A stretch of 64,000 bases of DNA from a virus, in the IMG/VR virus record IMGVR_UViG_3300008108_000057, positions 57,540 to 121,539 of that record. The stretch is one strand, 5' to 3'. Below, one piece after another: positions 19,388 through 62,189 of this stretch (its first letter is position 1; every line of letters starts with the position of its first letter). Below the pieces are notes generated by a model. That model searched no databases. It was not told the origin of the DNA and worked only from the letters and a program-made list of their open reading frames with translations. The position numbers and the translations under genes are program-made.

Positions 19388-19388
19388 A

Positions 19389-37821: not shown

Positions 37822-37826
37822 ATTAT

Positions 37827-37991: not shown

Positions 37992-39236
37992 ATGAAAACT
38001 CGTGGATTAAATTATGGGGCCAGTGTTGGTCTTGAAGCATATGATATAGACTGGAACTCTAAAGAAGAAATTGATGAATTAGGTAGACTTTGTGCTAGTC
38101 AATGTATTGTTTTTGTCAATGAAAGAATACCTACTGAACAAGTATATAACATTATGACTCAATGGGGCGACTCAAGCCGAGCCCTTATACATGAATATGT
38201 TATTCAACGTAAAATTTCAGGTAGACATTGGAGAGAGATATTACTTAATTTAGGATATATCGCTAAGGATGCAGGGAAGGACATCAGTCCGGCAGTATCT
38301 ATGGTAAGTTATAAAAAGGATGATGATGGTCGTCCTCGAGGCATTTTCAGTAACGGTGAATTAGATTGGCATAGTGACCAATGTGCATTTGATGATGCAC
38401 AACGTATTATTGGTTTACAAAGTATAAGTGACACGGTAAACAGTCAAACAACATTTTTATGTACACATGATGCTTACGAATCGCTGAGTTCGGACATACG
38501 TAGCATGGTGAAGGAATTGATTGTAAAACACAAATGGGTTGATGGAGTCATGGCTCCGGGGTTGAACTATCTTCAAACCATGCTACTAAAATACAACATG
38601 GTGCCAATAGATGGAATGGAAACTCATTTGTATAGAGAAACCGCTACCGGGCGTCCTGGTATAAAATTTCCATCACATACATTTAATGGATTTGTTGGCA
38701 TGTCGTTAGAAGAAAGCCATAGAGTCATGAATGAGTTAAAGAAAGAAGTTTATCAAGACAAATACGTATATACTCAGAACTGGCAAGATGGTCAAATTGT
38801 TTTTATGGATCAAGAAATTACATTACATGCTAGACCAACTAATGTTAGTGATGGTGATAAAAGAACTATGGCAAGAGTAATTACTTATTTAAATCATCTA
38901 TATCCAGAAAATAAATTAGCTACTCATGTAAGATTTAAAGGAAAAATGATTAGTCATGATGATTTTGCCAAACTAGTGGATGCTGATAGATCATACAAAT
39001 TTGAACAAGAACAAAAACTCAAAGAGATAATTTCAAAACAGTTCAAGGTAGTCGATAATAGACTTGATACCTGTACTAATTTAATTTCGGAGCTTGACGC
39101 CGACAGTCTTGATTTACTAGAATTAGTGCTTTCCATTGAAAGACAATTCAAAATTGAGATCGACGAATATGATACAAAAGATGTACGCACATTCGGAAAA
39201 ATTTTAGAATTGATACAGTCTAAAACTTCAAATTAA
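37992..39236 (+). CDS. TauD/TfdA-type 2OG dioxygenase fused to an acyl carrier protein domain
   Basis: 414 residues with AAGGAA before the ATG. Residues 1-330 form a TauD-like oxygenase: iron motif WHSD (His127, Asp129), distal His279 and the arginine region DKRTMARV (291-295). Residues about 340-410 are an acyl carrier protein: LDADSLDLLELV holds the phosphopantetheine serine Ser372, followed by the helix ERQFKIEI. Such fusions suggest hydroxylation or desaturation of a carrier-bound acyl or aminoacyl group. The gene stands alone between tRNA-Tyr and tRNA-Ala. No synthetase or transferase partner is adjacent, so host enzymes would have to load it. Confidence 0.85.
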   Translation: MKTRGLNYGASVGLEAYDIDWNSKEEIDELGRLCASQCIVFVNERIPTEQVYNIMTQWGDSSRALIHEYVIQRKISGRHWREILLNLGYIAKDAGKDISPAVSMVSYKKDDDGRPRGIFSNGELDWHSDQCAFDDAQRIIGLQSISDTVNSQTTFLCTHDAYESLSSDIRSMVKELIVKHKWVDGVMAPGLNYLQTMLLKYNMVPIDGMETHLYRETATGRPGIKFPSHTFNGFVGMSLEESHRVMNELKKEVYQDKYVYTQNWQDGQIVFMDQEITLHARPTNVSDGDKRTMARVITYLNHLYPENKLATHVRFKGKMISHDDFAKLVDADRSYKFEQEQKLKEIISKQFKVVDNRLDTCTNLISELDADSLDLLELVLSIERQFKIEIDEYDTKDVRTFGKILELIQSKTSN

Positions 39237-39243
39237 CATACTA

Positions 39244-39317
39244 GGGGGATTAGTTAAATGGGATAACATCGGCTTTGCAAGCCGAGATTAACAGTTCGAT
39301 TCTGTTATCCTCCACCA
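39244..39317 (+). tRNA. tRNA-Ala(TGC)
   Basis: Anticodon loop TTTGCAA in TCGGC/GCCGA, T arm AACAG-TTCGATT-CTGTT, encoded CCA. It starts 7 nt after the preceding gene's stop. Confidence 0.93.
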
Positions 39318-39323
39318 TAAATA
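39316..39323 (+). promoter_or_regulatory. Late promoter octamer CATAAATA before the S11 peptidase
   Basis: It overlaps the CCA end of tRNA-Ala and lies 25 bp before the ATG, suggesting late expression. Confidence 0.55.
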
Positions 39324-39348
39324 TTCCTTTACACACACAGGAATTAAA

Positions 39349-40092
39349 ATGAAGAAATTAGTTTTTACTTTAGCTTTACTACTATCAACCAATGTATCAT
39401 CCGCAACAACCTTTGTTTATAATGTAACAAAAGATGAAGTAGTACATGAATACGCATCCGAAAGAGTAAGACCAATTGCAAGTGTTACAAAATTGATGAC
39501 TGCGATTGTTGTTATTGAAAGTGGTGCATCATTGAATGGAAAAGTTTCTTACAGAGGTTTCTTAGGTAAGAAAGAATTGAGTAGAGAAGAATTATTAAAG
39601 TTGCTATTGGTTAAAAGTGACAATCAAGCCGCTGAGGCTTTAGCAAAAGCATACTCAGGTGGTAGAAGTGGTTTCATTGCTAACATGAATCACAAAGCAG
39701 AACAGTTAGGAATGGTTCATACTTCCTATGAAGATCCTTCTGGCATAGGAAGAAAGAATATAAGTACCGCAAGAGACATATCAATATTGTTAAATTATTC
39801 ACACAATTTTGATACAATGAAAAATCTTGCAGCACTTGAAAATGTGAAATTTACGAAACAATCAAAGAGAAAAAAGAAACAATCTTTGATGGTAGTTAAT
39901 AATACAAATTACAATTTACTGAAAGAATACAAAGAGATTGAGATATCTAAAACTGGCTTTACTAATGCTGCTGGCAAATGTCTTGCAATGCTCTTGACAA
40001 AAAATGGTGAAAAATATACAATAGTAATTCTTGGTGAAAGAAATACTAGAGATGTACAAAGAGTAGGTAGAAAGATTATTGAAACATTATAG
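39349..40092 (+). CDS. Secreted S11 peptidase (D-Ala-D-Ala carboxypeptidase family)
   Basis: 247 residues. A cleavable signal peptide (KKLVFTLALLLSTNVSSA) is followed by the three penicillin-binding active-site motifs: SVTK (Ser45, Lys48), SDN (90-92) and KTG (201-203). The family trims peptidoglycan stem peptides in the periplasm. At this length it lacks the PBP5 C-terminal domain and membrane anchor. It may remodel the wall or act in lysis or superinfection exclusion. The stop's last base is the first base of tRNA-Thr. Confidence 0.88.
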   Translation: MKKLVFTLALLLSTNVSSATTFVYNVTKDEVVHEYASERVRPIASVTKLMTAIVVIESGASLNGKVSYRGFLGKKELSREELLKLLLVKSDNQAAEALAKAYSGGRSGFIANMNHKAEQLGMVHTSYEDPSGIGRKNISTARDISILLNYSHNFDTMKNLAALENVKFTKQSKRKKKQSLMVVNNTNYNLLKEYKEIEISKTGFTNAAGKCLAMLLTKNGEKYTIVILGERNTRDVQRVGRKIIETL

Positions 40093-40165
40093 CCTCTTTA
40101 GTTAAATGGTATAACACTTGATTTGTAATCATGGATTGGCAGTTCGATTCTGTCAAGAGGCACCA
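40092..40165 (+). tRNA. tRNA-Thr(TGT)
   Basis: Acceptor GCCTCTT/AAGAGGC, anticodon loop TTTGTAA, T arm GGCAG-TTCGATT-CTGTC, encoded CCA. It overlaps the peptidase stop by 1 nt. Confidence 0.92.
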
Positions 40166-40170
40166 AACAT

Positions 40171-40244
40171 GCGGGATTAGTTTAATGGTAAAACGTGAGC
40201 CTTCCAAGCTCCTGTTATCAGTTCGATTCTGATATCCCGCTCCA
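40171..40244 (+). tRNA. tRNA-Gly(TCC)
   Basis: Acceptor GCGGGAT/ATCCCGC, anticodon loop CTTCCAA, T arm ATCAG-TTCGATT-CTGAT, discriminator T, encoded CCA. Confidence 0.93.
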
Positions 40245-40256
40245 CTTATTTAAAAA

Positions 40257-41198
40257 ATGATAAAAGTTCCTATTTACAATTCTTCTGGAGTTGCAATTGA
40301 TGAATTGATCATCAATGATGACGTTGAGTACATTCCAGATAGTAGAGTATATAAAGGCAAAAATTGCTATTACAAAGGCATAGGAGTACCATATTTTTTT
40401 CATGCTATTTTAGATGTAAATAACGATGAATATGAGAATATTGGAAAACATCCCGTTTTCTATTCGGGATATTATGTTGTAAAAAAATGTTTTAAAAATA
40501 AAACTGGAATATTTCAAGAAAGATTTCAACCATTTTTTTCTGACTTCATAGGAACTTGCGGTGTTAAAGAAGGAACCGTAGTACTAAATTCAATGTCGTT
40601 TGAGAAATCTTCTGTTGAGATTTTAGATTGTATAAACTACGATAAAGAGAATGACCAGTATTATTATTTGATGAATTATAATTGCGATAGAAAATCGTAT
40701 TTAACTGACGAAGAAGATCCAAAAAAACTAAGAGAACTTTTAGATTACATGATAATTAGTGATTGGAATTTCCTTTGGGATAAAGTTGCTATTAAAGATA
40801 TAAGTAATAAAGGAACAGTAAGTGATGTTGCAGACCTGTTTGTTTCGAATACACTTTCTCACAAAATAGGAACAGTATATTCTGTATTGTATAGTCTTGC
40901 GAAAAAAGATTCTGGAAAATATTTTAAGTTTTTGAATGTGAATAATTTGCAGCACATTGACGATCGGTCTTTTGTTTTCAATGCTATTGAAATCTTACGG
41001 GTGAACAATGTTGATGTGAGTGAATTATTTAAATATGACACAATTAATCAAGTCTACAAAAACATAGTAATAAATTATCTTGTAACTGGAAAAAATTGTG
41101 CATATTGTGCATGTGATCTATACAAAGATCAAGGTGAAGGAATAAAAGATCAATATGTTGAATTAACTAAAAACCAATTAACGGATATTATAATATAA
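40257..41198 (+). CDS. Hypothetical protein between tRNA-Gly and tRNA-Pro
   Basis: 313 residues, starting 13 nt after tRNA-Gly with no clear ribosome site, which suggests weak translation or a different start. Rich in Asp, Asn, Tyr and Lys, and more AT-rich than its neighbours. Cys residues cluster at GKNCAYCACDLY near residue 283. No signal peptide, membrane helix or known domain is recognised. Its base composition suggests a recent arrival in the array. Confidence 0.7.
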   Translation: MIKVPIYNSSGVAIDELIINDDVEYIPDSRVYKGKNCYYKGIGVPYFFHAILDVNNDEYENIGKHPVFYSGYYVVKKCFKNKTGIFQERFQPFFSDFIGTCGVKEGTVVLNSMSFEKSSVEILDCINYDKENDQYYYLMNYNCDRKSYLTDEEDPKKLRELLDYMIISDWNFLWDKVAIKDISNKGTVSDVADLFVSNTLSHKIGTVYSVLYSLAKKDSGKYFKFLNVNNLQHIDDRSFVFNAIEILRVNNVDVSELFKYDTINQVYKNIVINYLVTGKNCAYCACDLYKDQGEGIKDQYVELTKNQLTDIII

Positions 41199-41200
41199 TT

Positions 41201-41277
41201 CTGAGTGTAGTTCAGCCTGGTAGAATGCCTGCTTTGGGAGCAGGAGGTCGGGAGTTCGATCCTCTCCACTCAGACCA
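41201..41277 (+). tRNA. tRNA-Pro(TGG)
   Basis: Anticodon loop TTTGGGA in CCTGC/GCAGG, acceptor CTGAGTG/CACTCAG, encoded CCA. It begins 3 nt after the preceding stop codon. Confidence 0.93.
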
Positions 41278-41291
41278 TCATATAACTGACT

Positions 41292-41888
41292 ATGAATTTA
41301 AAAAACTTTATTAAAGAAGTTCCAAACACTCTTTCTAATGAAATGTGTGATTACTTCATTGATTTCTATGATACACATATGGAATCTGCTCAAAGATTTG
41401 AAGGTAGAAATCGGAGATGGCAGCCAACATTTAACCAAATCGTGTATACAGACTTTTTCTACAATACACCATATTGGAAACCAAATGAAAGAATAACCAA
41501 TGAAGTTGCTAGAGATATTAATGATCAAGCATACAAATATGTAAATGAACTTGGATTAGAAAAAACGTTTCCACCAAATCCTCTTAATGAAAAATTAAGA
41601 GTTAAAAAATATTTACTCAATGGAGAAGATGAATTTCCTTTGCATATTGATGCTTACTCTCAAGAAGCAGGATCAAGATTTTTATCCATGTTTGTATATT
41701 TGAACGACATAGAAGAAGGCGGCCATACAGCATTTCCAAGTTTAGGTGTTTCAATAAAACCAGAGAAAGGTAAGTTAGTAATATTTCCTTCTAATTGGAT
41801 GTTTCCTCATATCGGAGAAAAACCAATTTCAGGAGAAAAATATTTGCTGTCAACGTACTTACATTATTCTCCGTATTCAGAATCTTAG
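41292..41888 (+). CDS. Prolyl-4-hydroxylase-like 2OG-Fe(II) oxygenase
   Basis: 198 residues. LHIDAYS (His118, Asp120), FPHIGEKPISGEK (His173, Lys183) and the VYLNDIEEGGHTAFP core are the P4H-type oxygenase motifs. Marine T4-like phages frequently carry this family; proposed targets include protein prolines and nucleic acid, none established here. It stands alone between tRNA-Pro and tRNA-Met, 14 nt after the former. Confidence 0.88.
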   Translation: MNLKNFIKEVPNTLSNEMCDYFIDFYDTHMESAQRFEGRNRRWQPTFNQIVYTDFFYNTPYWKPNERITNEVARDINDQAYKYVNELGLEKTFPPNPLNEKLRVKKYLLNGEDEFPLHIDAYSQEAGSRFLSMFVYLNDIEEGGHTAFPSLGVSIKPEKGKLVIFPSNWMFPHIGEKPISGEKYLLSTYLHYSPYSES

Positions 41889-41899
41889 TTTAAGTATTA

Positions 41900-41974
41900 G
41901 GTAATGTAGCACAATGGTAGTGCAGCACCTTCATACGGTGTGTGTTGGGAGTTCAAGTCTCTCCATTACCACCA
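41900..41974 (+). tRNA. tRNA-Met/Ile2(CAT), copy 2
   Basis: Acceptor GGTAATG/CATTACC fully paired, anticodon loop TTCATAC in GCACC/GGTGT, encoded CCA. Elongator Met or Ile2 type. Confidence 0.9.
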
Positions 41975-41975
41975 G

Positions 41976-42051
41976 CGGTCCTTAGTAAAATGGATGATTA
42001 CGGATGGCTACGGACCATCAAGTGGAGGTTCGATTCCTTCAGGACCGGCCA
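41976..42051 (+). tRNA. tRNA-Arg(ACG)
   Basis: Acceptor CGGTCCT/AGGACCG, anticodon loop CTACGGA in GATGG/CCATC, T arm GGAGG-TTCGATT-CCTTC, encoded CCA. A34 would need conversion to inosine by host TadA. Confidence 0.9.
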
Positions 42052-42058
42052 GTTTTAT

Positions 42059-42135
42059 CCTCACTTAGCTCAGTAGGTTAGAGCATCGTCTTGATAAGGC
42101 GAGGGTGCTTGGTTCGATTCCAAGAGTGAGGACCA
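42059..42135 (+). tRNA. tRNA-Ile(GAT)
   Basis: Anticodon loop TTGATAA in TCGTC/GGCGA, acceptor CCTCACT/AGTGAGG, encoded CCA. Confidence 0.93.
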
Positions 42136-42152
42136 ATTAATAGGAGTTAAAT

Positions 42153-42410
42153 ATGTCAGATGGAGGTAAAGGAAGTAATCCCAGACCATATAGTGTAGAT
42201 AGAAAAACATTTAATGACAATTGGGATAAAATCTTCAAAAAAGAAAAACAATGTAAATGTGAAAGTTGTAAATGCAACATCAAAAAAAGTTCTTCAGATT
42301 TTCAAGACATCCTAAGTACAGAAGATTGTGTGTTAGATGCACTAAAAGAAATGAACAGAATTAGTGATGAATGTGGTGATTATATTACTAATGAAATAAA
42401 CCCGGAGTAG
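42153..42410 (+). CDS. Small Cys-rich hypothetical protein ending in tRNA-Trp
   Basis: 85 residues with an AGGAG site. The motif CKCESCKC near residue 38 could bind zinc or iron; two more Cys follow. The N-terminus is basic and Pro/Gly rich. The stop TAG is nucleotides 8-10 of tRNA-Trp, so the gene overlaps the tRNA by 10 nt. No family is recognised. Confidence 0.72.
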   Translation: MSDGGKGSNPRPYSVDRKTFNDNWDKIFKKEKQCKCESCKCNIKKSSSDFQDILSTEDCVLDALKEMNRISDECGDYITNEINPE

Positions 42411-42474
42411 TATAATGGCAGTGCGGCGGTCTCCAAAACCGTTAGTGGGGGTTCGATTCCCTCCTCCGGGGCCA
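42401..42474 (+). tRNA. tRNA-Trp(CCA)
   Basis: Acceptor CCCGGAG/CTCCGGG, anticodon loop CTCCAAA in GCGGT/ACCGT, discriminator G, encoded CCA. It overlaps the upstream gene by 10 nt. Confidence 0.93.
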
Positions 42475-42494
42475 TTAACATAACAGGAGTTATA

Positions 42495-42965
42495 ATGAAA
42501 AAATTAAATCTAGAGGAAGTAAAAGAGTATATTCTTGCTCAGTCACCAGAAACAAAAATCTATCTAGGTGCAGATTCCGAAAGATTTAATATGAATGGTG
42601 TTTGGTATGCAGATTATACAACCGCAATTGTTGTACACATAGATGGACGTCATGGCTGCAAAATTTTTGGTGAAGTAACAAGAGAAAGAGATTATGATCA
42701 ACGTAAAGATCGTCCTTCTATGCGTTTGATGAATGAAGTATATAAAGTATCAGAACTGTTTCAAAGCCTTGCTGATGTATTAGAAGATCGTTATGTTGAA
42801 GTACACTTGGATATTAATCCTAATGAAATGCATGGATCATCTTGTGTCATTCAACAAGCAGTTGGTTATATTCGTGGTACATGTAATGTGATACCTATGG
42901 TAAAGCCAAGAGCATTTGCGGCTTCTTATGCAGCAGACAGATTGAAAGAAGTATTAGCAGCATAA
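42495..42965 (+). CDS. RNase H-like protein of the YkuK (DUF458) type
   Basis: 156 residues. IYLGADSERF starts an RNase H-like strand with a first acidic residue, YTTAIVVHIDGRHGCKIFGEV is the next hairpin, and EVHLDINPNEMHGSS supplies the second acidic region; AASYAADRL closes the fold. This pattern matches the YkuK family, predicted ribonuclease H-like but of unknown role. In an array of tRNA genes an RNA-processing role is attractive but unproven. AGGAG precedes the ATG. Confidence 0.75.
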   Translation: MKKLNLEEVKEYILAQSPETKIYLGADSERFNMNGVWYADYTTAIVVHIDGRHGCKIFGEVTRERDYDQRKDRPSMRLMNEVYKVSELFQSLADVLEDRYVEVHLDINPNEMHGSSCVIQQAVGYIRGTCNVIPMVKPRAFAASYAADRLKEVLAA

Positions 42966-42969
42966 CAAT

Positions 42970-43044
42970 GGTGTCCATGGTGTAGTGGAAGCATTGCTCT
43001 CTGTGAAAGAGTAGGTACGAGGTCGGTACTCGTTGGACACCCCA
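42970..43044 (+). tRNA. tRNA-His(GTG)
   Basis: An encoded G at -1 precedes the acceptor GTGTCCA/TGGACAC with discriminator C73, as required by HisRS. Anticodon loop CTGTGAA in GCTCT/AGAGT. The T loop reads GTCGGTA rather than TTCRANY, which is unusual. CCA is encoded. Confidence 0.88.
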
Positions 43045-43065
43045 ATTAATTATAGGAATATTAAA

Positions 43066-43311
43066 ATGAACTTGACACCACTTAGAAATAATGTTATAGT
43101 AGAAAAACTTGAAAAGGAATTGACCACATCATCTGGTATTATTCTCAAAAGTAGCGACGAGGCGGATAAAGCAAAAGTCGTTGCAATTGGACCAGAAGTT
43201 AATGATGTTGAAGTTGGTAATGTTCTTTTAATTAATTGGAACAAAGCAACTAAATTGATGGATAATTTATATCAAATAAATGTCAATGAAGTTATTGGAG
43301 TATTTGAGTAA
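43066..43311 (+). CDS. GroES-like co-chaperonin
   Basis: 81 residues from the ATG at 43066 (an upstream in-frame start at 43033 would begin inside tRNA-His). PLRNNVIVEKLEKELTTSSGIIL and the barrel strands KAKVVAIGPEV and VGNVLLIN fit GroES, slightly shorter than bacterial GroES. The mobile-loop region (LEKELTTSSGIIL) is present, so it could cap host GroEL to fold phage capsid protein, the job of T4 gp31. Confidence 0.85.
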   Translation: MNLTPLRNNVIVEKLEKELTTSSGIILKSSDEADKAKVVAIGPEVNDVEVGNVLLINWNKATKLMDNLYQINVNEVIGVFE

Positions 43312-43312
43312 A

Positions 43313-43387
43313 GCACCGTTAGCTCAGTGGTAGAGTCCCTGCCTTACAAGCAGGTTGTCAGTGGTTCGAATCCATTACGGTGCACCA
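43313..43387 (+). tRNA. tRNA-Val(TAC)
   Basis: Anticodon loop CTTACAA in CCTGC/GCAGG, T arm AGTGG-TTCGAAT-CCATT, encoded CCA. It begins 1 nt after the GroES-like stop. Confidence 0.93.
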
Positions 43388-43551
43388 GAAATATTACCAA
43401 AAGTTTCACCATAAGTTGGCCATCTCATTGGTACAAACTCATAGCGTTCTTTTGGTATTTCATTGTATAGAGGAATAAAATTTTTTTCCTCTGTAGTGCA
43501 TACACAGACGGCGTAACGATAAAGAGTTCTAGCGTAGTAATTGTTGTCCAT
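43375..43551 (-). CDS. Small hypothetical minus-strand protein
   Basis: 58 residues read on the minus strand from ATG at 43551. It has normal protein composition (EEKNFIPLYNEIPKERYEF, then RWPTYGETFGN). Its end overlaps the + strand tRNA-Val gene by 13 nt. A CATAAATA octamer (minus strand, 43557-43564) lies immediately upstream, which would make a leaderless transcript. No family is recognised. It fills most of the gap between tRNA-Val and tRNA-Leu. Confidence 0.55.
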   Translation of the reverse strand: MDNNYYARTLYRYAVCVCTTEEKNFIPLYNEIPKERYEFVPMRWPTYGETFGNISGAP

Positions 43552-43563
43552 AAAAATATTTAT

Positions 43564-43646
43564 GCCCCGATGGTGGAATTGGTAGACACGCTGGTCTTAG
43601 AAGCCAGTGCTTCGGCGTGAGAGTTCGAGTCTCTCTTGGGGCACCA
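43564..43646 (+). tRNA. tRNA-Leu(TAG)
   Basis: Class II tRNA, anticodon loop CTTAGAA in CTGGT/GCCAG, long variable arm, encoded CCA. Confidence 0.93.
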
Positions 43647-43648
43647 AT

Positions 43649-43733
43649 GCGAGTATGGTGAAATCGGTATACACAGCAGACTTAAAATCTGCCGCCGCAA
43701 GGCGTGACGGTTCAAGTCCGTCTACTCGCACCA
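43649..43733 (+). tRNA. tRNA-Leu(TAA)
   Basis: Class II tRNA, acceptor GCGAGTA/TACTCGC, anticodon loop CTTAAAA in GCAGA/TCTGC, variable arm CCGCAAGG, encoded CCA. Confidence 0.94.
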
Positions 43734-43743
43734 CTAAATAAAT

Positions 43744-43817
43744 GGCGGGTTGGTGAAATGGTATCACAGAGGACTCATAATCCTCAGTTCCTTGTTCGAC
43801 TCTTGGGCCCGCAACCA
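43744..43817 (+). tRNA. tRNA-Met-like(CAT), copy 3, atypical
   Basis: Anticodon loop CTCATAA in GAGGA/TCCTC. The acceptor end GCCCGCA-ACCA resembles initiator tRNA with position 1-72 unpaired (G-A here), but the anticodon stem lacks the three G-C pairs of initiators. The T stem CCTTG/CTTGG has two T-T mismatches, so it may be degenerate. Confidence 0.7.
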
Positions 43818-53509: not shown

Positions 53510-54220
53510 ATGAGTGCAGTGGTAATTATTCCGACTACTGGAGCTGATACAGTAAAACGCTCCATTGAAAGTGTTTTATCCCAAACCTATCCGACAACTT
53601 GTTATGTTGTCTGTGATGGTAATCAATTCAGAGGTAAAGTCAAAGTTATTGTTGACAACTACCTATCAAATAAAAATATTAAACTCTGTTTCTTGCCAGA
53701 CAACGTAGGTGCTAATGGATTCTATGGCCATAGAGTTTATGCTGCGTTCTCCCATTTAGTTAATGAAGATTACGTTATGTTTCTGGATCAAGATTGTTGG
53801 TTTGAAGATAATCATGTTCAGTCCTGCGTGAACACAATTCAATCTAAAGAATTAGATTGGACGTATTCTTTGAGAAAAATTACCGACAAAGATGGAAACT
53901 TCTATTGTAATGATGACTGTGAAAGTCTTGGTAAATGGATAGCATGGACAAATACACACCATATTGACACAAATAGTTATTGCGTTCGTCGTGAAATCCT
54001 GATAAGATTAGCATCTACGTGGCATGGTGGGTGGGGTCAAGATAGAGTGTTCTTCAATACAATAGCAACCAACTTTCAGAAGTGGGATTGTACAAGAAGA
54101 TACACAGTCAACTACAGAGTTGATGGTAATGCAGGTTCTGTGACAAAAGGATTCTTTGATCAAGGTAATAAAGTGATGCATGATTTTTATAAAGGAAAAC
54201 TTCCTTGGCAAGACAATTGA
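53510..54220 (+). CDS. Glycosyltransferase family 2
   Basis: 236 residues. AVVIIPTTGADTVKRSIESVLSQ is the GT2 nucleotide-binding start, and YVMFLDQDCWFED carries the DxD-type metal site (DQD). GGWGQDRVFF supplies the likely acceptor/catalytic acidic residue. It opens an eleven-gene cassette of sugar genes with short overlaps. The cassette probably builds or alters a surface glycan, by inference. Confidence 0.88.
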   Translation: MSAVVIIPTTGADTVKRSIESVLSQTYPTTCYVVCDGNQFRGKVKVIVDNYLSNKNIKLCFLPDNVGANGFYGHRVYAAFSHLVNEDYVMFLDQDCWFEDNHVQSCVNTIQSKELDWTYSLRKITDKDGNFYCNDDCESLGKWIAWTNTHHIDTNSYCVRREILIRLASTWHGGWGQDRVFFNTIATNFQKWDCTRRYTVNYRVDGNAGSVTKGFFDQGNKVMHDFYKGKLPWQDN

Positions 54221-54996
54221 TAGTAGGTAAAACTAGTTTTATTGGTAATGAACTAGCTAAACTGAAAAATTTTGATATTGTAGCATACAAAGATATTCAT
54301 CATGTTGACTTTTCTCAATATGATGGCGTTATCAATTGTGCATTGAATCCTGTGTTTAAAACTCAAACATATGATGAAAAAATTGATGTTGATTATGAGA
54401 TAGCAAAACTTGCGTATGAAAATAATTGCCATTATGCAATGATTTCAACCAGAAAGGTTTATGGATCATCATCAGAACTGAAAACATATACAGAAGAAAG
54501 TCCTACAAATCCATTTGACTTCTATAGTGAAAACAAATTGATTTGTGAGAATAAAATTCTAAATGAGTTTGGGGATAAAGCAGTCATAGTCAGAGGATCT
54601 AATTTGTTTGGATTTGAATTGGGTAGGCAATCTTTCATGGGCTTCTGTATGGATCAATTGAAGCACAGTGAAAAGATTGTATTTTCAATTAGCGAAAAAA
54701 CAAAAAGAGACTTTATTGATGTGACTACATCAGCATGTATGTTAGATAAAATTTTAAGAAGAAAATTGACAGGAATATATAATTTAAGTTCTAACTATGG
54801 TCTTGAAATAGGCAAAGTAGCAAAACATTTAATTCGTGGTTATGGTAAAGGTGAGTTTTTATGTACCAGTGATGTTGTCAAAGAGCAGTTCATCATAGAC
54901 AACACAAAACTAATCAAACAGCTCAAACTTATTTCTCACCCATTTTATATCACAGGTATCATTGAAAATTTAGGAGAAGAATTGTGCAAGATATGA
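54205..54996 (+). CDS. NAD-dependent epimerase/dehydratase (SDR)
   Basis: 263 residues from a TTG start at 54205 with AAAGGA 9 nt upstream; a TTG at 54217 is an alternative. GKTSFIGNELA is the Rossmann-type dinucleotide loop, with an unusual Lys-Thr in place of Gly-rich GxxGxxG, and FYSENK provides the YxxxK catalytic pair with ISTRKVYGS before it. Probably a nucleotide-sugar epimerase or reductase. It overlaps the GT2 gene by 16 nt. Confidence 0.82.
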   Translation: MARQLIVGKTSFIGNELAKLKNFDIVAYKDIHHVDFSQYDGVINCALNPVFKTQTYDEKIDVDYEIAKLAYENNCHYAMISTRKVYGSSSELKTYTEESPTNPFDFYSENKLICENKILNEFGDKAVIVRGSNLFGFELGRQSFMGFCMDQLKHSEKIVFSISEKTKRDFIDVTTSACMLDKILRRKLTGIYNLSSNYGLEIGKVAKHLIRGYGKGEFLCTSDVVKEQFIIDNTKLIKQLKLISHPFYITGIIENLGEELCKI

Positions 54997-55832
54997 TCAT
55001 TAGTGCCGTGTCGGAATACAAGTACGACAGAATGAAACATTGGGTGAACTCAATCAAGAAGTGCGGATTTAAAGGTAGAATCGCAGTCGTTGCATTTAAT
55101 ATCACAGACAATACAATTAGGAAACTAAAATATGAAGGTGTTGAGGTTTACTTAACAACAAATCAAAGAAACGAAAAAGATGATGGATACTTGTACGCAA
55201 ACGGAATAACTTATCACGTACCAATGCTTAGACATTATTTTTATTGGGCAATATTGTCTCAAATGAAAGACATTCGTTATGTCATTTCTACAGATATATC
55301 TGATGTTGTATTTCAACTAGATCCTTCTGTGTGGTTAGAAAATCATCTCGGCGATAAAAAATTAAATTATGGATGTGAAGGTCTATTGTACAAAGACGAA
55401 ACATGGGGAAATCAAAACATGATGGAATGTTTTCCTCAACTATATCATCACATGAAGGACAGACCGATCTACAATGCCGGATCAATGGCTGGCGAGTTTG
55501 AGATGTTTAAAAACTTTTCATTAGCTGTTTCTTTGGCTATTAACAATATTCCACATCCAACTCCAGATCAAGCTGGTGTTAATGCTATGTTATCAATCGA
55601 ACCATATCACTCACTTACCAAGTTCAATGACCACGATACAAATTGGGCATGTGAATGTGGGACTACTGTAGACCCAAATAAAATAGAACGATTCAGACCC
55701 CATCTATTGAGTCCTGAGCCTATCTTTGATGGGGAGTATGTGTATACAAGTAAAGGCGAGAAATATGTAATGGTACACCAATATAATAGAGTGCCAGAAT
55801 GGAAAGAAAAGATTGAGAAAAAATATGGATAA
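54984..55832 (+). CDS. Glycosyltransferase-like protein
   Basis: 282 residues from GTG at 54984, supported by GGAG 7 nt upstream; an ATG at 54993 is the alternative. ISTDISDVVFQLDP has the D-x-S-D form of a GT-A metal site, PTPDQAGVNAML is a typical later acidic block, and VMVHQYNR a final His motif. These fit nucleotide-diphospho-sugar transferases acting on surface glycans. No family was named with confidence. Confidence 0.72.
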   Translation: MQDMIISAVSEYKYDRMKHWVNSIKKCGFKGRIAVVAFNITDNTIRKLKYEGVEVYLTTNQRNEKDDGYLYANGITYHVPMLRHYFYWAILSQMKDIRYVISTDISDVVFQLDPSVWLENHLGDKKLNYGCEGLLYKDETWGNQNMMECFPQLYHHMKDRPIYNAGSMAGEFEMFKNFSLAVSLAINNIPHPTPDQAGVNAMLSIEPYHSLTKFNDHDTNWACECGTTVDPNKIERFRPHLLSPEPIFDGEYVYTSKGEKYVMVHQYNRVPEWKEKIEKKYG

Positions 55833-56649
55833 TGATATTTCAGTAGTTACAGCATTCTATGATATTGGTAGAGGTAATCTACCAAAAGTAAAACATGGTA
55901 GAGAGTTACCATTCTATCAGCATAGAAGTGTAAATCAATATTTTGATTTTTTCAGTAACCTAGCTAAACTTCAAAACGAAATGGTGATTTACACAACACC
56001 CGATTTTGAAGATAAAGTTAAAACTATCAGAAAAAATGTTGGGTTGGAAGAACTGACGAAAGTTGTTATTGCAGATTCATACCTACCCGAAAGATATGAA
56101 CTAATTAAACCTATGGTTCAAAAGGTAATGGATGATCCCGCATATTATGGTAAAGTGGTGAATCCTCAACTGATTGAATATTGGCATGCCGATTATGTTC
56201 TTGTCAATATTTTTAAAGCCTGGTATGTTACTGATGCAATTGAGAAAGGTCTGATAAGTAATGATCTTACTGCATGGATAGATTTTGGTTATGTTCGTGA
56301 TGATAAAACAATACCAGCATCAAATCGTTGGACTTATAATTTTGATCGTGAGAAAATTCATTTCTTCAATCAATATACTATACACAAAGAAAGACCGATT
56401 GACAATATAATCTATACAGGTGATGTTTACATTCAAGGATGTCATATTGTAGCAGGAACAAAGAAATGGGAACTTCTTAAGCAATTGGTTCTCAAAAATC
56501 TAGAAGTTCTATTACAAAATAATTTAATTGATGATGATCAAACATTATTGCTCATGTCGTATCTGACAAGCCCACAAGATTTTCAGTTACATATTGCTGA
56601 TCCAAACGATTGGTTTAGAATCTTTAGAATATTTAATGATCAAATATGA
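55825..56649 (+). CDS. HtrL/YibB-type protein
   Basis: 274 residues from ATG at 55825; an upstream in-frame start at 55813 lies within the previous gene. SVVTAFYDIGRGNLP and the MVIYTTPDFEDKVK pattern match the HtrL/YibB family (PF09612), seen in lipopolysaccharide regions and thought to be glycosyltransferases. AWIDFGYVRD holds the probable D-x-G metal region. It overlaps the previous gene by 8 nt. Confidence 0.82.
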   Translation: MDNDISVVTAFYDIGRGNLPKVKHGRELPFYQHRSVNQYFDFFSNLAKLQNEMVIYTTPDFEDKVKTIRKNVGLEELTKVVIADSYLPERYELIKPMVQKVMDDPAYYGKVVNPQLIEYWHADYVLVNIFKAWYVTDAIEKGLISNDLTAWIDFGYVRDDKTIPASNRWTYNFDREKIHFFNQYTIHKERPIDNIIYTGDVYIQGCHIVAGTKKWELLKQLVLKNLEVLLQNNLIDDDQTLLLMSYLTSPQDFQLHIADPNDWFRIFRIFNDQI

Positions 56650-57386
56650 TTAAAATATATTCGCCAAGAATTCATAATCTGGGAGATTTTATGCATTGTC
56701 TCCCAGCATTATCGGGTCTACATAAAAAACTAAAGTATAAATTCTCATTTGTCATTTGTGATAGGCTAGAAAGATTTGTTGGTATAAAAGAATTATTGAT
56801 GCAGCAAGAGATGTTTGCTGAAGTAAAATTCATGCATGAAGAAACTATGATTGCTGAAAGATATATTCTATTGGATGATATTGGTGAGGAGAAACAACAT
56901 GGTAACAGTCCAATAGCATGTCATAGATTTTATAATTTCATCAGAGATAATTACAAAATAGATTTTGATATTGATGATGATTTTGAATTAAAAGTGCCAA
57001 AACTAGATATAGACTTTCAAACAGACAAGTTAATCATTGGTGATAGATGGTCATCTAGAGATGCACCAGATGTTGATACTAGAAGATATTCTAATCTTAT
57101 AGAAAGTGCAGAAATTGTACCAAAAGAAAAAGCATTATATCTTGACTATAAAAAAGATTTAATATATAATTGTTCTCTAATTAAGCATAATCCAAATCCA
57201 TTTATTACCACATTTACTGGAATAGGTATTGTTGCCGATTTGATGAAAAAAGATTGTTACATTTTGTGGGATGAAGATATACGAAACTGGCAAGGTTGGG
57301 GTGTAGAACAAGATTATAAACTACACTACTATCAAGATAGAAAATCAAAACTTGTTTATATAAGAGATTTTAAGTATGATAATTAA
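56646..57386 (+). CDS. GT9/heptosyltransferase-like protein (first of two)
   Basis: 246 residues. IYSPRIHNLGDFMHCLPALSGLHKKL is the start of GT-B enzymes such as heptosyltransferases (GD-x-x-x-x-LP). The C-terminal sugar-nucleotide site is less clear than in the next gene, so it may be catalytically weak. It overlaps the neighbouring genes by 4 and 11 nt. Confidence 0.65.
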   Translation: MIKIYSPRIHNLGDFMHCLPALSGLHKKLKYKFSFVICDRLERFVGIKELLMQQEMFAEVKFMHEETMIAERYILLDDIGEEKQHGNSPIACHRFYNFIRDNYKIDFDIDDDFELKVPKLDIDFQTDKLIIGDRWSSRDAPDVDTRRYSNLIESAEIVPKEKALYLDYKKDLIYNCSLIKHNPNPFITTFTGIGIVADLMKKDCYILWDEDIRNWQGWGVEQDYKLHYYQDRKSKLVYIRDFKYDN

Positions 57387-58080
57387 TGTTCCTTTAGGCG
57401 CATTTGGTGGCCCTCTCAGAAATGGTGATATTGTTGCTGTAGCAAATGTCGTTGAATATCTTAGAAAAGTAGAAGATAAAAATATAAAATTCCATCTTTT
57501 ACCTAACTCTGTGTCATCAGCAGATTACTGTCAGAAATTTTTAAAGTTTATGTTAGAGAATACAGATTATTTCTCTGATAACGCAGGTGAAAAAGAACTT
57601 TCATGGAAAAATATTAATCTTTGGGATTTTAGAGGATTATCTGGTGATTTAGTGAGAATCCCAAATAATAAAAAGCAAGAAAAGAAGATAGTTATCTGTC
57701 CTTTATTTAATGCCCAATACAACACATACAGAAATTGGCCAAAACATATTTTTGAAAAAATGCTTGAGAGATTTAAGAGCGAAGCATATTCGGATTATAG
57801 AAAAATCATTTGTACAGAAGAAACTATAGGCCACATTGATGGGTGGGAAGAATCTACAGATTTTCTAGAAAATTTAGATCACATAATGACAAGTGAAATA
57901 TTCTTTGGGGGTGATACTGGAACTAGTCACTTTGTTGGTGCATTAGAAAGTGGACCAGGTGAAATATTATATTTCTATTCTGGTCATGGTCTTATTCACA
58001 CAACTCCTTTCTACTCTACCTTAGGAAAAGGAAGAGTCATTCAGTACTGGCATAACTTTGAACAAGCAACTTGGAGTTAA
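57376..58080 (+). CDS. GT9/heptosyltransferase-like protein (second of two)
   Basis: 234 residues. LGAFGGPLRNGDIVAVANVVEYL is the N-terminal half pattern, VICPLFNAQYNTYRNWPKHIFEKML resembles the GT-B C-terminal half start, and FFGGDTGTSHFVGAL corresponds to the G-x-D-S-G-x-x-H acceptor motif of heptosyltransferases. It probably adds a sugar to a lipopolysaccharide-like acceptor. Confidence 0.72.
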   Translation: MIINVPLGAFGGPLRNGDIVAVANVVEYLRKVEDKNIKFHLLPNSVSSADYCQKFLKFMLENTDYFSDNAGEKELSWKNINLWDFRGLSGDLVRIPNNKKQEKKIVICPLFNAQYNTYRNWPKHIFEKMLERFKSEAYSDYRKIICTEETIGHIDGWEESTDFLENLDHIMTSEIFFGGDTGTSHFVGALESGPGEILYFYSGHGLIHTTPFYSTLGKGRVIQYWHNFEQATWS

Positions 58081-58081
58081 T

Positions 58082-58789
58082 ATGAGAATTAAATTATTCA
58101 GTCACATGGTTGACATTGGTTGTGGAAAAGATATTACAGTAGAACAAACAGAGCTACTAGAAAAAACAGGTTTGCTTGATGCTGTTGAACACGCATATTT
58201 CTTTGCACACTTTGATAGAGATAACTATTCCTGGTTAGAAGAAAGATGGAAAGACAGAAAGAACGTTGATATTCTACATTATAATCAAGATTATCAGCCT
58301 TGGTATGAGGCAACTTCAGTAAACTATTTGCAAGAATATTGTCATGAAAACGATGAAGAATTTTATGTTTGCTTCATGACACACAAAGGAGCAAGTCATG
58401 GTCCTGGTGGTCATCAAAACTGGCGAAGATATATGCAATACTGGAATATAGAGAAATGGAAAGACTGTGTTGCAAAGCTTGATGAAGGTTATGACATGTG
58501 TGGTGCTGCATTTTTAAATAACCCGCCACATCCTTTTTATGCGGGTAACTTTTTCTGGGCAAAAGCATCATATCTAAGGAAGTGTCGTAGACTAAAAACT
58601 CCACCAGAAAATATGTTCAAGCCACAATTTGAAGAACAACCACACCATCGTTTTGATCTTGAATGTTGGCATGGTAGTGGTGCACCTAATGCATATGATA
58701 TGCATCCTGGGGAAACAAATCGATGGTATTTACCTCCAGAAACATACCGAGATGATATGGAAGAAACCTTTACTTACAGAACAGTATGA
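58082..58789 (+). CDS. Glycosyltransferase-like protein with YAGNFFWAKASYL motif
   Basis: 235 residues from ATG at 58082 (1 nt after the preceding stop). PFYAGNFFWAKASYLRKC is a block I associate with a family of bacterial and phage sugar transferases, and FYVCFMTHKGASH is a nearby strand. The C-terminus is His/Trp-rich (CWHGSGAPNAYDMHPGETNRWY). Substrate unknown. It overlaps the next gene by 4 nt. Confidence 0.68.
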   Translation: MRIKLFSHMVDIGCGKDITVEQTELLEKTGLLDAVEHAYFFAHFDRDNYSWLEERWKDRKNVDILHYNQDYQPWYEATSVNYLQEYCHENDEEFYVCFMTHKGASHGPGGHQNWRRYMQYWNIEKWKDCVAKLDEGYDMCGAAFLNNPPHPFYAGNFFWAKASYLRKCRRLKTPPENMFKPQFEEQPHHRFDLECWHGSGAPNAYDMHPGETNRWYLPPETYRDDMEETFTYRTV

Positions 58790-59427
58790 ACGATACGGCA
58801 ATCATAGTTACCTCTTATTGTGGAGGTAATTTTCAAGAAGAAAAAAGAAAAATGACTAAGACAATCTGTAAAATGTTGTCTGAAAAAGGTCATTATGTTA
58901 TTCTTACTACACACTCACCTGTAGACGTTGATACACAAAATTATTGTGATGTATTTGTTTATGATAAAGACAATAGATTTTCTTTTGATGACGTTCCACA
59001 AAGAACGACAAATCATGGTGTCGCAGAGTTGACACTTATGAGAAATGCAGTAAAATTAATACCTGAAAATTTCAAATATCTACTGAAGATGGCATATGAT
59101 AATAAGCCAGATTTAGATTATCATGATATCATACAGAAGTGTAAAGAAACTAATAAGAAAGCGGTCACAGCAAAATGGGGTAACGATATTACGTTAGGAA
59201 CTCAGATGTATTTTTCTGAGATTGCATTCTTTAGAGAAACATTATCAATGAATGAATTATGGCGATGCGAAAAAGACTTAGAATATGTTTGGTATGATTC
59301 TGTAAAAGATAAAAACTTATTAGATCAAGTGCATGTACTAGACCTATACAGAAACTTCTTTGGCCATGATGTTCTTCAATATGCTCATGCAGCAGGAACT
59401 TTTGTAGATCACTATCCATATGATTAG
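58786..59427 (+). CDS. Glycosyltransferase-like hypothetical protein
   Basis: 213 residues. AIIVTSYCGG starts a Rossmann-like strand and LLKMAYDNKPDLD may hold a divergent metal site. ITLGTQMYFSEIAFFRETL is typical of the middle of transferases in this cassette. Identity is inferred from context and pattern. Confidence 0.6.
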   Translation: MNDTAIIVTSYCGGNFQEEKRKMTKTICKMLSEKGHYVILTTHSPVDVDTQNYCDVFVYDKDNRFSFDDVPQRTTNHGVAELTLMRNAVKLIPENFKYLLKMAYDNKPDLDYHDIIQKCKETNKKAVTAKWGNDITLGTQMYFSEIAFFRETLSMNELWRCEKDLEYVWYDSVKDKNLLDQVHVLDLYRNFFGHDVLQYAHAAGTFVDHYPYD

Positions 59428-60091
59428 TTTAACTTGTATTGATGCCTTAGATTACGAACCAACAATTCGTGCAATACGAAGCACGATCAAGTGTATTCCT
59501 ATAAGCAGAGTATATTGGTTTAGTGATGTTAATCTAATCTCGGATGAGTTTCCTGTAACTTGGATAAAAATAAACAAATTCAAACGATATACTGATGAAT
59601 ATAATTTTATAACCTTGAAATTAGTACCTCATGTTGTTACTGAACCATACAACATAATAATTCATGCTGATGGATTTGCTGTAAATCGGAGTGCATGGGA
59701 TGAACAATTCTTAAATTATGATTATATTGGCGCCAGATGGAATAATGGCATGGTAGGTAATGGTGGATTCTGTCTGAGAAGTAGAAAACTATACGATGCT
59801 TTACTGAATCTAGATGTTAAGTACAAAACATCAGATTATTCACAAGAAGTAATAGATAATTCGGAGCACTATGTGTTTGATGCATATGGTGATAAAGTGA
59901 TTCCTGAAGATAATATTATCTGCAAGATACATAGAAAAGAACTTGAAGAAAATTATGGTATTAAATTTGCTGAAGGTGACATTGTAGACAAATTTAGCAT
60001 AGAACATAATACGTCATCTTCTTGGTTAGGTAGAAGTTTAGGATTTCATGGTAAACATGGAATAGCAAAACATTATGGAGTTGAGTTATGA
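59420..60091 (+). CDS. DUF5672-type glycosyltransferase-like protein
   Basis: 223 residues. FLNYDYIGARWNN, MVGNGGFCLRSRKLYDALL and VIPEDNIICKIHRKEL are the blocks of the DUF5672 family, which has a GT-A-like fold and is usually found among surface-sugar genes. HADGFAVN contains the D-x-x pattern. It overlaps the previous gene by 8 nt. Confidence 0.8.
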   Translation: MISLTCIDALDYEPTIRAIRSTIKCIPISRVYWFSDVNLISDEFPVTWIKINKFKRYTDEYNFITLKLVPHVVTEPYNIIIHADGFAVNRSAWDEQFLNYDYIGARWNNGMVGNGGFCLRSRKLYDALLNLDVKYKTSDYSQEVIDNSEHYVFDAYGDKVIPEDNIICKIHRKELEENYGIKFAEGDIVDKFSIEHNTSSSWLGRSLGFHGKHGIAKHYGVEL

Positions 60092-60105
60092 TATGGAGAA
60101 ATTAA

Positions 60106-61386
60106 ATGACACCAAATGAAATGATTGAAGCACTATCAAAATCAGTGCAACCAAAGTATGTGAAAAATTATGATAATTATCAAGAAGGCCAGTTTGTGCA
60201 GTATTCTGGTCAACTTTGGGATCATAACGAAATACGAGTAGCACTAGACGCACTTCTAAATGGTGCATGGATTGTTTCTGGAGAAAAAGTATCTGAATTT
60301 CAAGATGCTTTTAGTAAAAGATTCAATGTCAAATATTCCCATATGGTGAACTCAGGTAGTTCAGCAAATCTTGTGATGGTGACTGCTGCTAAAAAATATT
60401 ACAAGTGGCAAGACGGCGATGAGATTATTGTTTCTCCTGTCGGGTTCCCAACAACTATTGCACCTATTATTCAAAATGGAATGAAACCAGTTTTCATTGA
60501 CATTGAACTTGAAACATTAAATTTTGATGTTAGTAAAATTGAAGAAAAGATCAATTCAAAAACAAGAGCAATTTTTGTATCTCCTGTTTTGGGTAATCCT
60601 CCAAACATGGATGTGATTGTTGACATATGCAATAAACATGGTCTTACTTTACTTGGTGATAACTGTGATTCGCTAGGCTCACTTTGGAATGGAAGATTAA
60701 TTACAGACTACTATGATACATGGACAACATCATTCTATCCTGCTCACCATATTAGCACAGGTGAAGGTGGTATGGTATGTTCAGATAACGAAGATTTCAT
60801 CAAAGAAGCAAGAAGCATTTCATGGTGGGGTAGAGATTGCTACTGTGTAGGATCAAACAATCTATTAGAATGTGGCACTTGTGGTAAACGATTTGACAAT
60901 TGGCTTGAGAATTACGATGGTATTATTGATCACAAATATCTGTTTACAAACATCGGATATAATCTAAAACCTCTTGATCTTCAAGGTGCTATTGGTCTTG
61001 AGCAATTGAAAAAGTTTGATATGCTTGAAAGTAAACGCAGAGAATATAAAGAAACTATTCAAAAATACATTGAAGATAATATCCCTGGTGCAAGAGTTAT
61101 TAATGCTACAGAAAACTCAGATCCTTCTTGGTTTGGTGTTCCCATCTATTGCGAATCACAAGAGATGAAAGAGTTGCTAGTATCTCATTTTGAATCCAAT
61201 AAAGTTCAAACTAGAAACTACTTTAGCGGGAATATTCTTTTACATCCAGGATACAAACATCTAGATGATTATAAGAATTATCCCAATTCGAATCTAGCTT
61301 TAAGTAATGTATTCTTTATCGGTTGCTCTCCTCTATACAACGAAAAGATTTTGAACTATATTGAGAAGGTATGTCAAAAATGGTAA
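60106..61386 (+). CDS. rfbH: RfbH-type CDP-4-dehydro-6-deoxyglucose 3-dehydrase
   Basis: 426 residues. It is of the DegT/DnrJ aminotransferase fold, but FYPAHHISTGEGG has His (His214/215) where ordinary aminotransferases have the PLP-binding Lys, the mark of the RfbH/E1 dehydrase. The cysteines C187, C245, C247 and C256 (WWGRDCYC, then ECGTC) sit with spacing close to the C-x57-C-x1-C-x7-C iron-sulphur motif I recall for E1. It would remove the C3 hydroxyl of a CDP-sugar on the way to 3,6-dideoxyhexoses. Partner reductase E3 is not seen in the window. Two SDR genes in the cassette could finish the sugar. Confidence 0.9.
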   Translation: MTPNEMIEALSKSVQPKYVKNYDNYQEGQFVQYSGQLWDHNEIRVALDALLNGAWIVSGEKVSEFQDAFSKRFNVKYSHMVNSGSSANLVMVTAAKKYYKWQDGDEIIVSPVGFPTTIAPIIQNGMKPVFIDIELETLNFDVSKIEEKINSKTRAIFVSPVLGNPPNMDVIVDICNKHGLTLLGDNCDSLGSLWNGRLITDYYDTWTTSFYPAHHISTGEGGMVCSDNEDFIKEARSISWWGRDCYCVGSNNLLECGTCGKRFDNWLENYDGIIDHKYLFTNIGYNLKPLDLQGAIGLEQLKKFDMLESKRREYKETIQKYIEDNIPGARVINATENSDPSWFGVPIYCESQEMKELLVSHFESNKVQTRNYFSGNILLHPGYKHLDDYKNYPNSNLALSNVFFIGCSPLYNEKILNYIEKVCQKW

Positions 61387-62189
61387 ACGTTCTTGGTGCT
61401 GGATTTGTTGGTGGTAGATATGCTGAACTAACTAAAAATGTAATTGTCAATGATAGAAATGATTATGAAGTGAAATCAAATGAAGTTCTTTATTTCATCT
61501 CTACAATTGACAATTATAATGTATTCACAAATCCATATATTGACATTGAAACAAATCTAACAACATTGATAAAGACTTTAGAATCATGTAAAGACAAAGA
61601 TGTTACTTTCAATTTCATTAGTTCTTGGTTTGTATATGGAAATGTAGATTTGCCGGCAAAAGAATCTGCTTATTGTGATCCGAAAGGATTCTACAGCATA
61701 ACCAAACGAACAGCAGAGCAACTTCTCATTTCATATTGTGAAACGTTCAACATTAAGTACAGGATTCTCAGACTAGCAAACGTTTTAGGAGAATCTGACC
61801 ACAAGGTATCTAAAAAGAAGAATGCTCTGCAATACATGATCAATGAACTGAAAGCAGGAAACACAGTTTCGTTGTATGATGGTGGTGAAGCATATAGAGA
61901 CTATATCTATGTTGACGATGCGGTTCGTGCTATTAATCTAGTATTGCAAAAAGGAAAAGTCAACGAAATCTATAATATTGGTAATGGCGTTCCAGTCAGG
62001 CTGGTAGATGCTATTAACTATGCTGCCACAAAGTTGAGTTCATCATCTAATGTGGAAACTATTGAAACCGCAGCATTTCATAAGGTGGTACAAACCACAA
62101 ACATGGTCCTTGATATTACCAAAATTAAGAGTCTGGGCTATGTACAAACTAAGTCAGTTTATGATATTATGGACAAATTAATCGTATAA
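61371..62189 (+). CDS. NAD-dependent epimerase/dehydratase (SDR)
   Basis: 272 residues. VNVLGAGFVGGRYAEL is a clean Rossmann loop, FYSITKRTAEQLL the YxxxK catalytic segment, RDYIYVDDAVRAINLVL the typical sugar-epimerase block and IYNIGNGVPVRLVD the C-terminal motif. ATG at 61371 is favoured, though 61380 is also possible. It overlaps rfbH by 16 nt and is likely to act on its product, for instance as a 4-reductase or epimerase. Confidence 0.88.
   Translation: MSKMVNVLGAGFVGGRYAELTKNVIVNDRNDYEVKSNEVLYFISTIDNYNVFTNPYIDIETNLTTLIKTLESCKDKDVTFNFISSWFVYGNVDLPAKESAYCDPKGFYSITKRTAEQLLISYCETFNIKYRILRLANVLGESDHKVSKKKNALQYMINELKAGNTVSLYDGGEAYRDYIYVDDAVRAINLVLQKGKVNEIYNIGNGVPVRLVDAINYAATKLSSSSNVETIETAAFHKVVQTTNMVLDITKIKSLGYVQTKSVYDIMDKLIV

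Follow-up and report, generated by a model that had tools for sequence, protein, structure and literature searches.

The dehydrase gene described here lies in a window of 64,000 nucleotides, the whole stretch of DNA that was analysed, from a viral record of 163,380 bases (IMG/VR record IMGVR_UViG_3300008108_000057). The gene at 60106-61386 on the plus strand is genuine and intact; it is an uninterrupted ORF of 426 aa, the tenth of eleven same-strand ORFs that run from 53510 to 62189 (Table 1). This cassette contains a family 2 glycosyltransferase (GT2), two SDRs, HtrL/YibB and DUF5672 proteins and several ORFs for which no family was found in the family searches; the initial annotation of the enzyme as phage-encoded is supported.

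Table 1. Genes of the glycosyltransferase cassette and dehydrase features, in window coordinates
Feature	Position	Strand	Basis
Glycosyltransferase family 2	53510..54220	+	PF00535
Second SDR (epimerase/RmlD-like)	54205..54996	+	PF01370
Possible glycosyltransferase, weak	54984..55832	+	PHROG 1579, E 0.00039
HtrL/YibB family protein	55813..56649	+	PF09612
Cassette ORF, family none found	56646..57386	+	family searches
Cassette ORF, family none found	57376..58080	+	family searches
Cassette ORF, family none found	58058..58789	+	family searches
Cassette ORF, family none found	58786..59427	+	family searches
DUF5672 protein, upstream neighbour of the dehydrase	59420..60091	+	PF18922
18-nt stretch like the 3' end of sister-phage rmlB (15/18)	60088..60105	+	
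Predicted Fe-S, PMP-type NDP-sugar 3-dehydrase (E1/RfbH superfamily, phage clade), 426 aa	60106..61386	+	
Cys187 codon, predicted [2Fe-2S] ligand	60664..60666	+	Cys in 82/82 bacterial rows among the matches listed
His214 codon, place of the PLP lysine	60745..60747	+	aligned with K of E1 H220K (3bb8); H in 37/37 rows
Cys245-Tyr-Cys247 codons, predicted ligands	60838..60846	+	both Cys in 82/82 bacterial rows among the matches listed
Cys259 codon, predicted fourth ligand (replaces C256)	60880..60882	+	alignment, conservation
Short SDR, 272 aa, predicted NDP-4-keto-3,6-dideoxyhexose 4-reductase	61371..62189	+	

The window phage is T4-like and aquatic. Matches to T4-like Synechococcus phages extend across the portal, scaffold and head genes in part of the region 10871-25744, and the ORF at 18005-19327 resembles annotated major capsid proteins; the closest capsid proteins are those of Methylophilales phage Melnitz (65.5%) and Pelagibacter phage Mosig (65.3%), along with Stenotrophomonas and Synechococcus phages, while the DNA polymerase is closest to cyanophages (52%). 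No psbA-type gene was found in five virus records searched, that of the window phage included. The region 35039-43817 carries 25 tRNA genes covering 19 amino acids, with Phe absent. Outside the window, at approximately 143364-146258 of the same record (L036:3365-6259), separate genes encode a GalE-like SDR, an HldE-type nucleotidyltransferase, a PfkB-type kinase and a cupin, a group that possibly represents an ADP-heptose route.

Enzyme class of the dehydrase

The dehydrase is predicted to be an E1/RfbH-type, PMP-dependent, [2Fe-2S] nucleotide-sugar 3-dehydrase. It has the DegT/aspartate-aminotransferase-type fold (PF01041, 242 bits), and of nine families compared PRK15407/RfbH (NCBIfam) is by far the best at 369.8 bits, a score below the RfbH equivalog cut-off of 423; in a sequence comparison with solved structures the top matches are E1 (3bcx, E=3e-72), its H220K mutant (3bb8) and then ColD. 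The RfbH score and the 3bcx E-value argue that the E1 assignment is not due to chance. The AlphaFold2 model has a pLDDT of 92.3, falling to about 58-71 in the loop 241-280, and its best PDB matches are likewise E1; it superposes on 3bcx with a Z-score of 53.7 and 2.2 Å across 400 residues at 33% identity, while ColD reaches 47.5, tied with GDP-perosamine synthase at 47.4.

The PLP lysine was initially read as replaced by His in the motif FYPAHH, and this is confirmed; H214, the first His of the motif, aligns with the mutant lysine of 3bb8 and therefore occupies the PLP-lysine position. Four iron-sulphur cysteines had also been named, C187, C245, C247 and C256, of which the first three align with those of E1 while C256 gives way to C259: the fourth cysteine of E1 (TCxKRF) aligns with C259, which is Cys in 82/82 bacterial homologues among the matches listed, compared with 0/82 for C256. 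Position 256 is constant as Cys across the IMG/VR set (102/102 E1 ORFs among the matches listed, and also L183) and the marine phage relatives L041-L043 carry Asn there. The resulting spacing is C-X57-C-X1-C-X11-C, whereas the last gap is X7 in E1 by alignment with 3bcx. The ligand cysteines are conserved throughout the homologue set; all four are Cys in 102/102 viral E1 ORFs among the matches listed and in 36/37 rows of the first alignment, the exception being a ColD-type protein of Synechococcus phage S-CAM7 that keeps C187 only. The bacterial scan and the second viral scan were selected by the patterns SFYPAHH(I), GYNLKP.D and NSGSSANL, so the conservation of the His in these scans is partly a product of selection; the cysteines lie outside the patterns. 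L183 reads SLYPAHH and thus falls outside the SFYPAHH set of 102, yet it keeps the His and the cysteines.

A Lys-type DegT aminotransferase was rejected on the His at the PLP-lysine position and on the tree grouping (one DegT row), in support of the initial view that this is not an ordinary aminotransferase; in the phylogeny against RfbH and DegT, the starred branch separates the dehydrase from the DegT and the ColD-type rows. A ColD-type assignment of the window dehydrase was rejected on the presence of the cysteines and the tree, and neither cassette SDR comes near the Gmd cut-off. ColD, a GDP-4-keto-6-deoxymannose 3-dehydratase, shares the His for Lys and a related fold; however, it lacks an Fe-S cluster and belongs to a GDP pathway (PMC8987622, in the text available). 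In S-CAM7 (L045:8028-11086), the genes ahead of the His-type dehydrase, which lacks three of the four cysteines, carry the annotations GDP-mannose 4,6-dehydratase and GDP-L-fucose synthetase; together with the dehydrase they probably make up a phage GDP-colitose pathway.

A mainly phage-borne clade

In a 99-row tree, built as a quick SH-aLRT search with bacterial rows taken from the best 80 loci listed, among others, 14 phage rows and five bacterial rows fall on one branch (SH-aLRT 99). The bacterial members are from Nitrosomonadaceae (L048), Nitrospirales (L049) and Prochlorococcus (L050), with L139 and L140 from the family of L050; the opposite side holds 77 other bacterial rows, including those of Streptomyces/Micromonospora, together with the canonical RfbH of a Salmonella phage record (78 canonical E1 rows). 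That record (OR851175.1, L044), only 2.6 kb long and labelled 'Salmonella phage', encodes an ordinary canonical E1 and is probably host DNA. A second tree, made with FastTree, compares 49 viral clusters with ten canonical rows and splits in the same way. By these trees the sampled phage dehydrases and the five bacterial ones are placed in a clade apart from canonical E1. The Synechococcus phage S-H68 protein annotated as E1 (L043, 55%) is a near-copy of RN05-S L041, which is in the clade of the window dehydrase.

Close bacterial members of the clade are rare in the samples searched: three of 300 genomes sampled from the family to which the Prochlorococcus genome belongs hold one at E <= 1e-60, that genome included, and one of 399 genomes sampled from the order that contains the Nitrosomonadaceae genome does so at E <= 1e-90, which is that genome itself. 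The viral scan returned at least 593 confirmed relatives, a figure that does not imply clade membership of all; the viral loci kept are the best 80 of these, at 57-100% identity, and the bacterial scan likewise kept the best 80 loci among the matches listed, so that tallies are not a census. Cluster counts at 90% dehydrase identity are given because near-copies occur among the loci.

Neighbouring genes and the nucleotide

All ORFs were scanned with models of RfbF, RfbG, RmlA, RmlB and the window SDR, each made from the retrieved loci. Among the matches listed, the 103 IMG/VR viral loci hold RmlA in 31, RmlB in 38, the SDR in 95 and RfbF or RfbG in none; four further phage records (two are near-copies) hold RmlB in three and the SDR in three, with no RmlA, RfbF or RfbG. 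The 82 bacterial loci, again among the matches listed, have RfbF in 49, RfbG in 53, RmlA and RmlB in two each and the SDR in three. Short viral contigs are common and lower every viral count. These associations speak against the 'CDP-sugar' label first given to the enzyme. A canonical RfbH/E1, which would convert CDP-4-keto-6-deoxyglucose from a host with RfbF/RfbG to a CDP-3,6-dideoxyhexose, is considered unlikely; E1 is the nearest characterised relative and the S-H68 protein carries that annotation, but RfbF and RfbG are missing from all these viral loci and phage records, the record of the window phage has no RfbF match, its matches to RfbG are GalE-like and stay below cut-off, the phage clade is separate and the dehydrase scores below the RfbH equivalog cut-off.

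Contiguous RmlB-RmlA-dehydrase-SDR arrays occur in 15 loci belonging to seven clusters (90% dehydrase identity), nine further loci have the RmlB-RmlA pair but with a stretch in between or with no SDR alongside, and in 13 loci from five clusters RmlB immediately precedes the dehydrase, all among the matches listed. On the same scope, RmlA or RmlB is present in 17/49 viral clusters and both are absent in 32/49; 19 of 34 representative loci without RmlA/RmlB hold at least 9 kb of upstream sequence. One of these 19, L031, has RmlB elsewhere in its record, and a whole-record search of 12 sister records found RmlB above cut-off in six. By NCBIfam, eight of nine RmlB proteins scanned score 382.5 to 458.9 bits (cut-off 365.1), those of L005, L009, L020, L024 and L041 being among the ones that pass, while that of the marine virus L042 misses at 362.0; four of six RmlA proteins score 417.6 to 430.7 (cut-off 360.65), with L170 (321.9) and L212 (348.4) below. 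For the sub-cut-off proteins of L042, L170 and L212, rmlA/rmlB is still the best family, and the CDP-glucose 4,6-dehydratase model gives the nine RmlB proteins just 71 to 105 bits (cut-off 278.45). RmlA-type enzymes are sometimes loose about the nucleotide.

Several loci vary the arrangement. Two viral contigs carry a tryptophan-halogenase-family flavoprotein (PF04820; L178:5731-7332 with 345 bits, L198:5378-7015 with 336 bits) between RmlA and the dehydrase; in L213:5785-9079 the dehydrase is followed by RmlC and by an RmlD-type SDR fused to a GT2, which replace the short SDR; and a 642-kb phage (L040:11956-14663) has a similar-looking 472-aa ORF in place of the short SDR.

RmlC was found in one of 102 viral loci among the matches listed, with a one-sequence model and flanks of up to 10 kb, which makes a rhamnose pathway doubtful for the RmlA/RmlB loci. 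If the ascarylose pathway is taken as a guide, the RmlC of the Synechococcus phage RN05-S cluster (221.6 bits) could invert the sugar at C5. The dTDP-hexose 2,3-dehydratase (PF03559) was found in none of 15 viral records, that of the window phage included and several being fragments, compared with 4/4 positive-control genomes that hold Streptomyces/Micromonospora E1s of the SpnQ kind. An SpnQ-like role, in which a dTDP-2,3,6-trideoxy sugar would be made after the 2,3-dehydratase, or the enzyme would serve as a 4-aminotransferase when reductant is absent, is therefore very improbable: SpnQ is a known dTDP enzyme of this type for which ferredoxin or flavodoxin suffices (PMC8987622, in the text available), but its partner dehydratase is missing from these viral records and the Streptomyces/Micromonospora rows sit inside the canonical clade, away from the phages. 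The presence of RmlA/RmlB neighbours, the absence of RfbF/RfbG and of the 2,3-dehydratase, and the near absence of RmlC together make dTDP-4-keto-6-deoxyglucose the likely substrate.

The short SDR partner

The adjacent SDR, whose orthologue accompanies the dehydrase in nearly all of the viral loci counted above, keeps the motifs GxGFxG, Ser84 and Tyr108-x3-Lys112 and has SWF where RmlB has TDE, so that the Asp-Glu pair is gone. Its bacterial matches are those of the three closest relatives, L048-L050, and none lies beside the other 77 bacterial E1s (80-locus scan, best listed). L139 and L140 are clade members without the SDR nearby; close to the L139 dehydrase are E1_dh/transketolase-type and acetolactate-synthase-type ThDP enzymes (L139:6836-8911 and 13672-15471), which may represent a branched-sugar pathway like that of yersiniose. 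The best 50 structural matches of the SDR model, at Z 28.6-30.7, are a mix of 4-epimerases, reductases and dehydratases, and the fold thus fits a reductase and an epimerase alike; we infer a 4-ketoreductase, with a 4-epimerase as the alternative.

Missing steps in the window phage

In the window phage record RmlB above cut-off is absent, RmlA and RmlC are absent from the ORFs, and no Fer2 domain was found. The short SDR was rejected as the missing 4,6-dehydratase, as it has no Asp-Glu pair and scores far below cut-off; the GalE-like SDR of the record was rejected on a score that is also far below cut-off. In a near sister, L005, whose dehydrase is 97% identical, RmlB comes immediately before the dehydrase, and the stop codon of the one overlaps the start codon of the other. 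In L014 the dehydrase is preceded by an rmlB remnant (38/45 nt identical to L009; the best of 64 control stretches reaches 22), and the sequence comparison indicates a clear loss of RmlB. The 18-nt tail before the window dehydrase is weak evidence of such a loss, because it contains the likely ribosome-binding site of the dehydrase and because L015, L016, L018 and L019, with another gene upstream, also keep a similar GGAGAAATTGA ahead of the start codon, as does L017 apart from one or two changes; RmlB loss in the window lineage is considered probable. The loss would be tolerable if the host supplies dTDP-4-keto-6-deoxyglucose, and of the three bacterial genomes with L048-L050, two encode an RmlB above cut-off at another place.

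Since only the last two enzymes are present, the window phage would need both host dTDP-4-keto-6-deoxyglucose and host reductant. No E3-type reductase or ferredoxin was found in the record by the Fer2 search; a crude motif screen gave few reductase-like ORFs near the bacterial E1s too, so this absence does not set the phage enzyme apart from RfbH proper. RN05-S and S-H68 have an annotated 2Fe-2S ferredoxin-type gene approximately 11-12 kb from the dehydrase; because cyanophage ferredoxins are common, this lends weak support.

Proposed pathway

It is considered probable that the phage dehydrase strips the C3 hydroxyl from dTDP-4-keto-6-deoxyglucose, that the short SDR reduces C4, and that the resulting dTDP-3,6-dideoxyhexose feeds the glycosyltransferase cassette. 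In some sister phages RmlA would convert glucose-1-phosphate and dTTP to dTDP-glucose and RmlB would carry out its 4,6-dehydration; in the window phage the 4-keto intermediate and reducing power of the ferredoxin/flavodoxin type would come from the host. The dehydrase would then act in a PMP- and [2Fe-2S]-dependent manner, the SDR would complete the dTDP-3,6-dideoxyhexose, and a glycosyltransferase of the cassette would place the sugar on a glycan. The 3,6-dideoxyhexose synthesis first suggested for this gene remains the best guess for the product, given the distribution of the 2,3-dehydratase between the viral records and the control genomes.

In the available text of PMC8987622, the PMP cofactor forms a Schiff base with the 4-keto sugar, the His takes a proton and the C3 hydroxyl departs; in E1/SpnQ-type enzymes the intermediate is reduced via the [2Fe-2S] cluster, with E3 (E1) or ferredoxin/flavodoxin (SpnQ) as the donor. 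Three substrate types are given there, CDP-4-keto-6-deoxyglucose, GDP-4-keto-6-deoxymannose and dTDP-4-keto-2,6-dideoxyglucose; a dTDP-4-keto-6-deoxyglucose 3-dehydrase is not included in that text.

That the substrate is another 4-keto sugar (GDP-, UDP- or an unusual heptose), made by phage or host, with the RmlA/RmlB link incidental, is improbable, and somewhat more so than a canonical E1. RmlA/RmlB are within reach in a minority of the viral clusters, the window phage record also holds the HldE-like nucleotidyltransferase and PfkB kinase genes, and the S-CAM7 ColD-type relative follows genes annotated Gmd and GDP-fucose synthetase; against this stand the contiguous four-gene arrays and the loci with RmlB directly upstream, each spread over several clusters among the matches listed, and the lack of three of the four cysteines in that ColD-type row.

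The sugar formed by the dTDP route would most likely be placed on a host surface glycan; virion glycosylation is the alternative. Pelagimyophages carry many glycosyltransferases and rfaE-type genes, read as a change of the host O-chain against co-infection (PMC7029224), and cyanophage LPS gene products are said to modify the host cell surface (PMC9602691); as far as the available text of these sources goes, the host-surface reading would fit here too, by analogy.

Relation to known systems and significance

The phage enzyme and E1/RfbH/AscC/DdhC (3bcx) have a common fold, His for Lys and four aligned cysteines; the phage side differs in its neighbours, with RmlA/RmlB in many sister phages and an SDR partner in place of RfbF/RfbG. 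SpnQ, which works without E3 (PMC8987622, in the text available), is an Fe-S 3-dehydrase of a dTDP pathway, as the phage dehydrase would be, but the substrate of SpnQ is dTDP-4-keto-2,6-dideoxyglucose, and the 2,3-dehydratase step leading to it is the one not found in the 15 viral records.

Viral rfbH/ascC (PMC10653327) and rfbH (PMC11295528) are listed as viral metabolic genes, with no pathway or nucleotide proposal seen in the text available from either source, and the open-licence literature searched yielded neither a dTDP-3,6-dideoxyhexose nor such a phage pathway. Annotations of phage-borne rfbH thus already exist; the separate clade, the SDR partner and the proposed dTDP operon did not turn up in that literature, and the dTDP pathway is the new part.

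The 3,6-dideoxyhexoses are O-antigen sugars made via CDP or GDP intermediates. We lean slightly towards the broader proposal of a third nucleotide route to these sugars, dTDP beside CDP and GDP, provided by a large clade of Fe-S 3-dehydrases that is carried mostly by phages and has a short SDR of its own; some phages would encode every step from glucose-1-phosphate onwards, and in others the route would be cut back to its final two steps. If true, the dTDP route, mainly in aquatic phages, would add a new branch to deoxysugar metabolism, and its four-gene set is compact enough for in vitro testing; it also suggests that phages would rebuild the glycan with a sugar that the host may not make.
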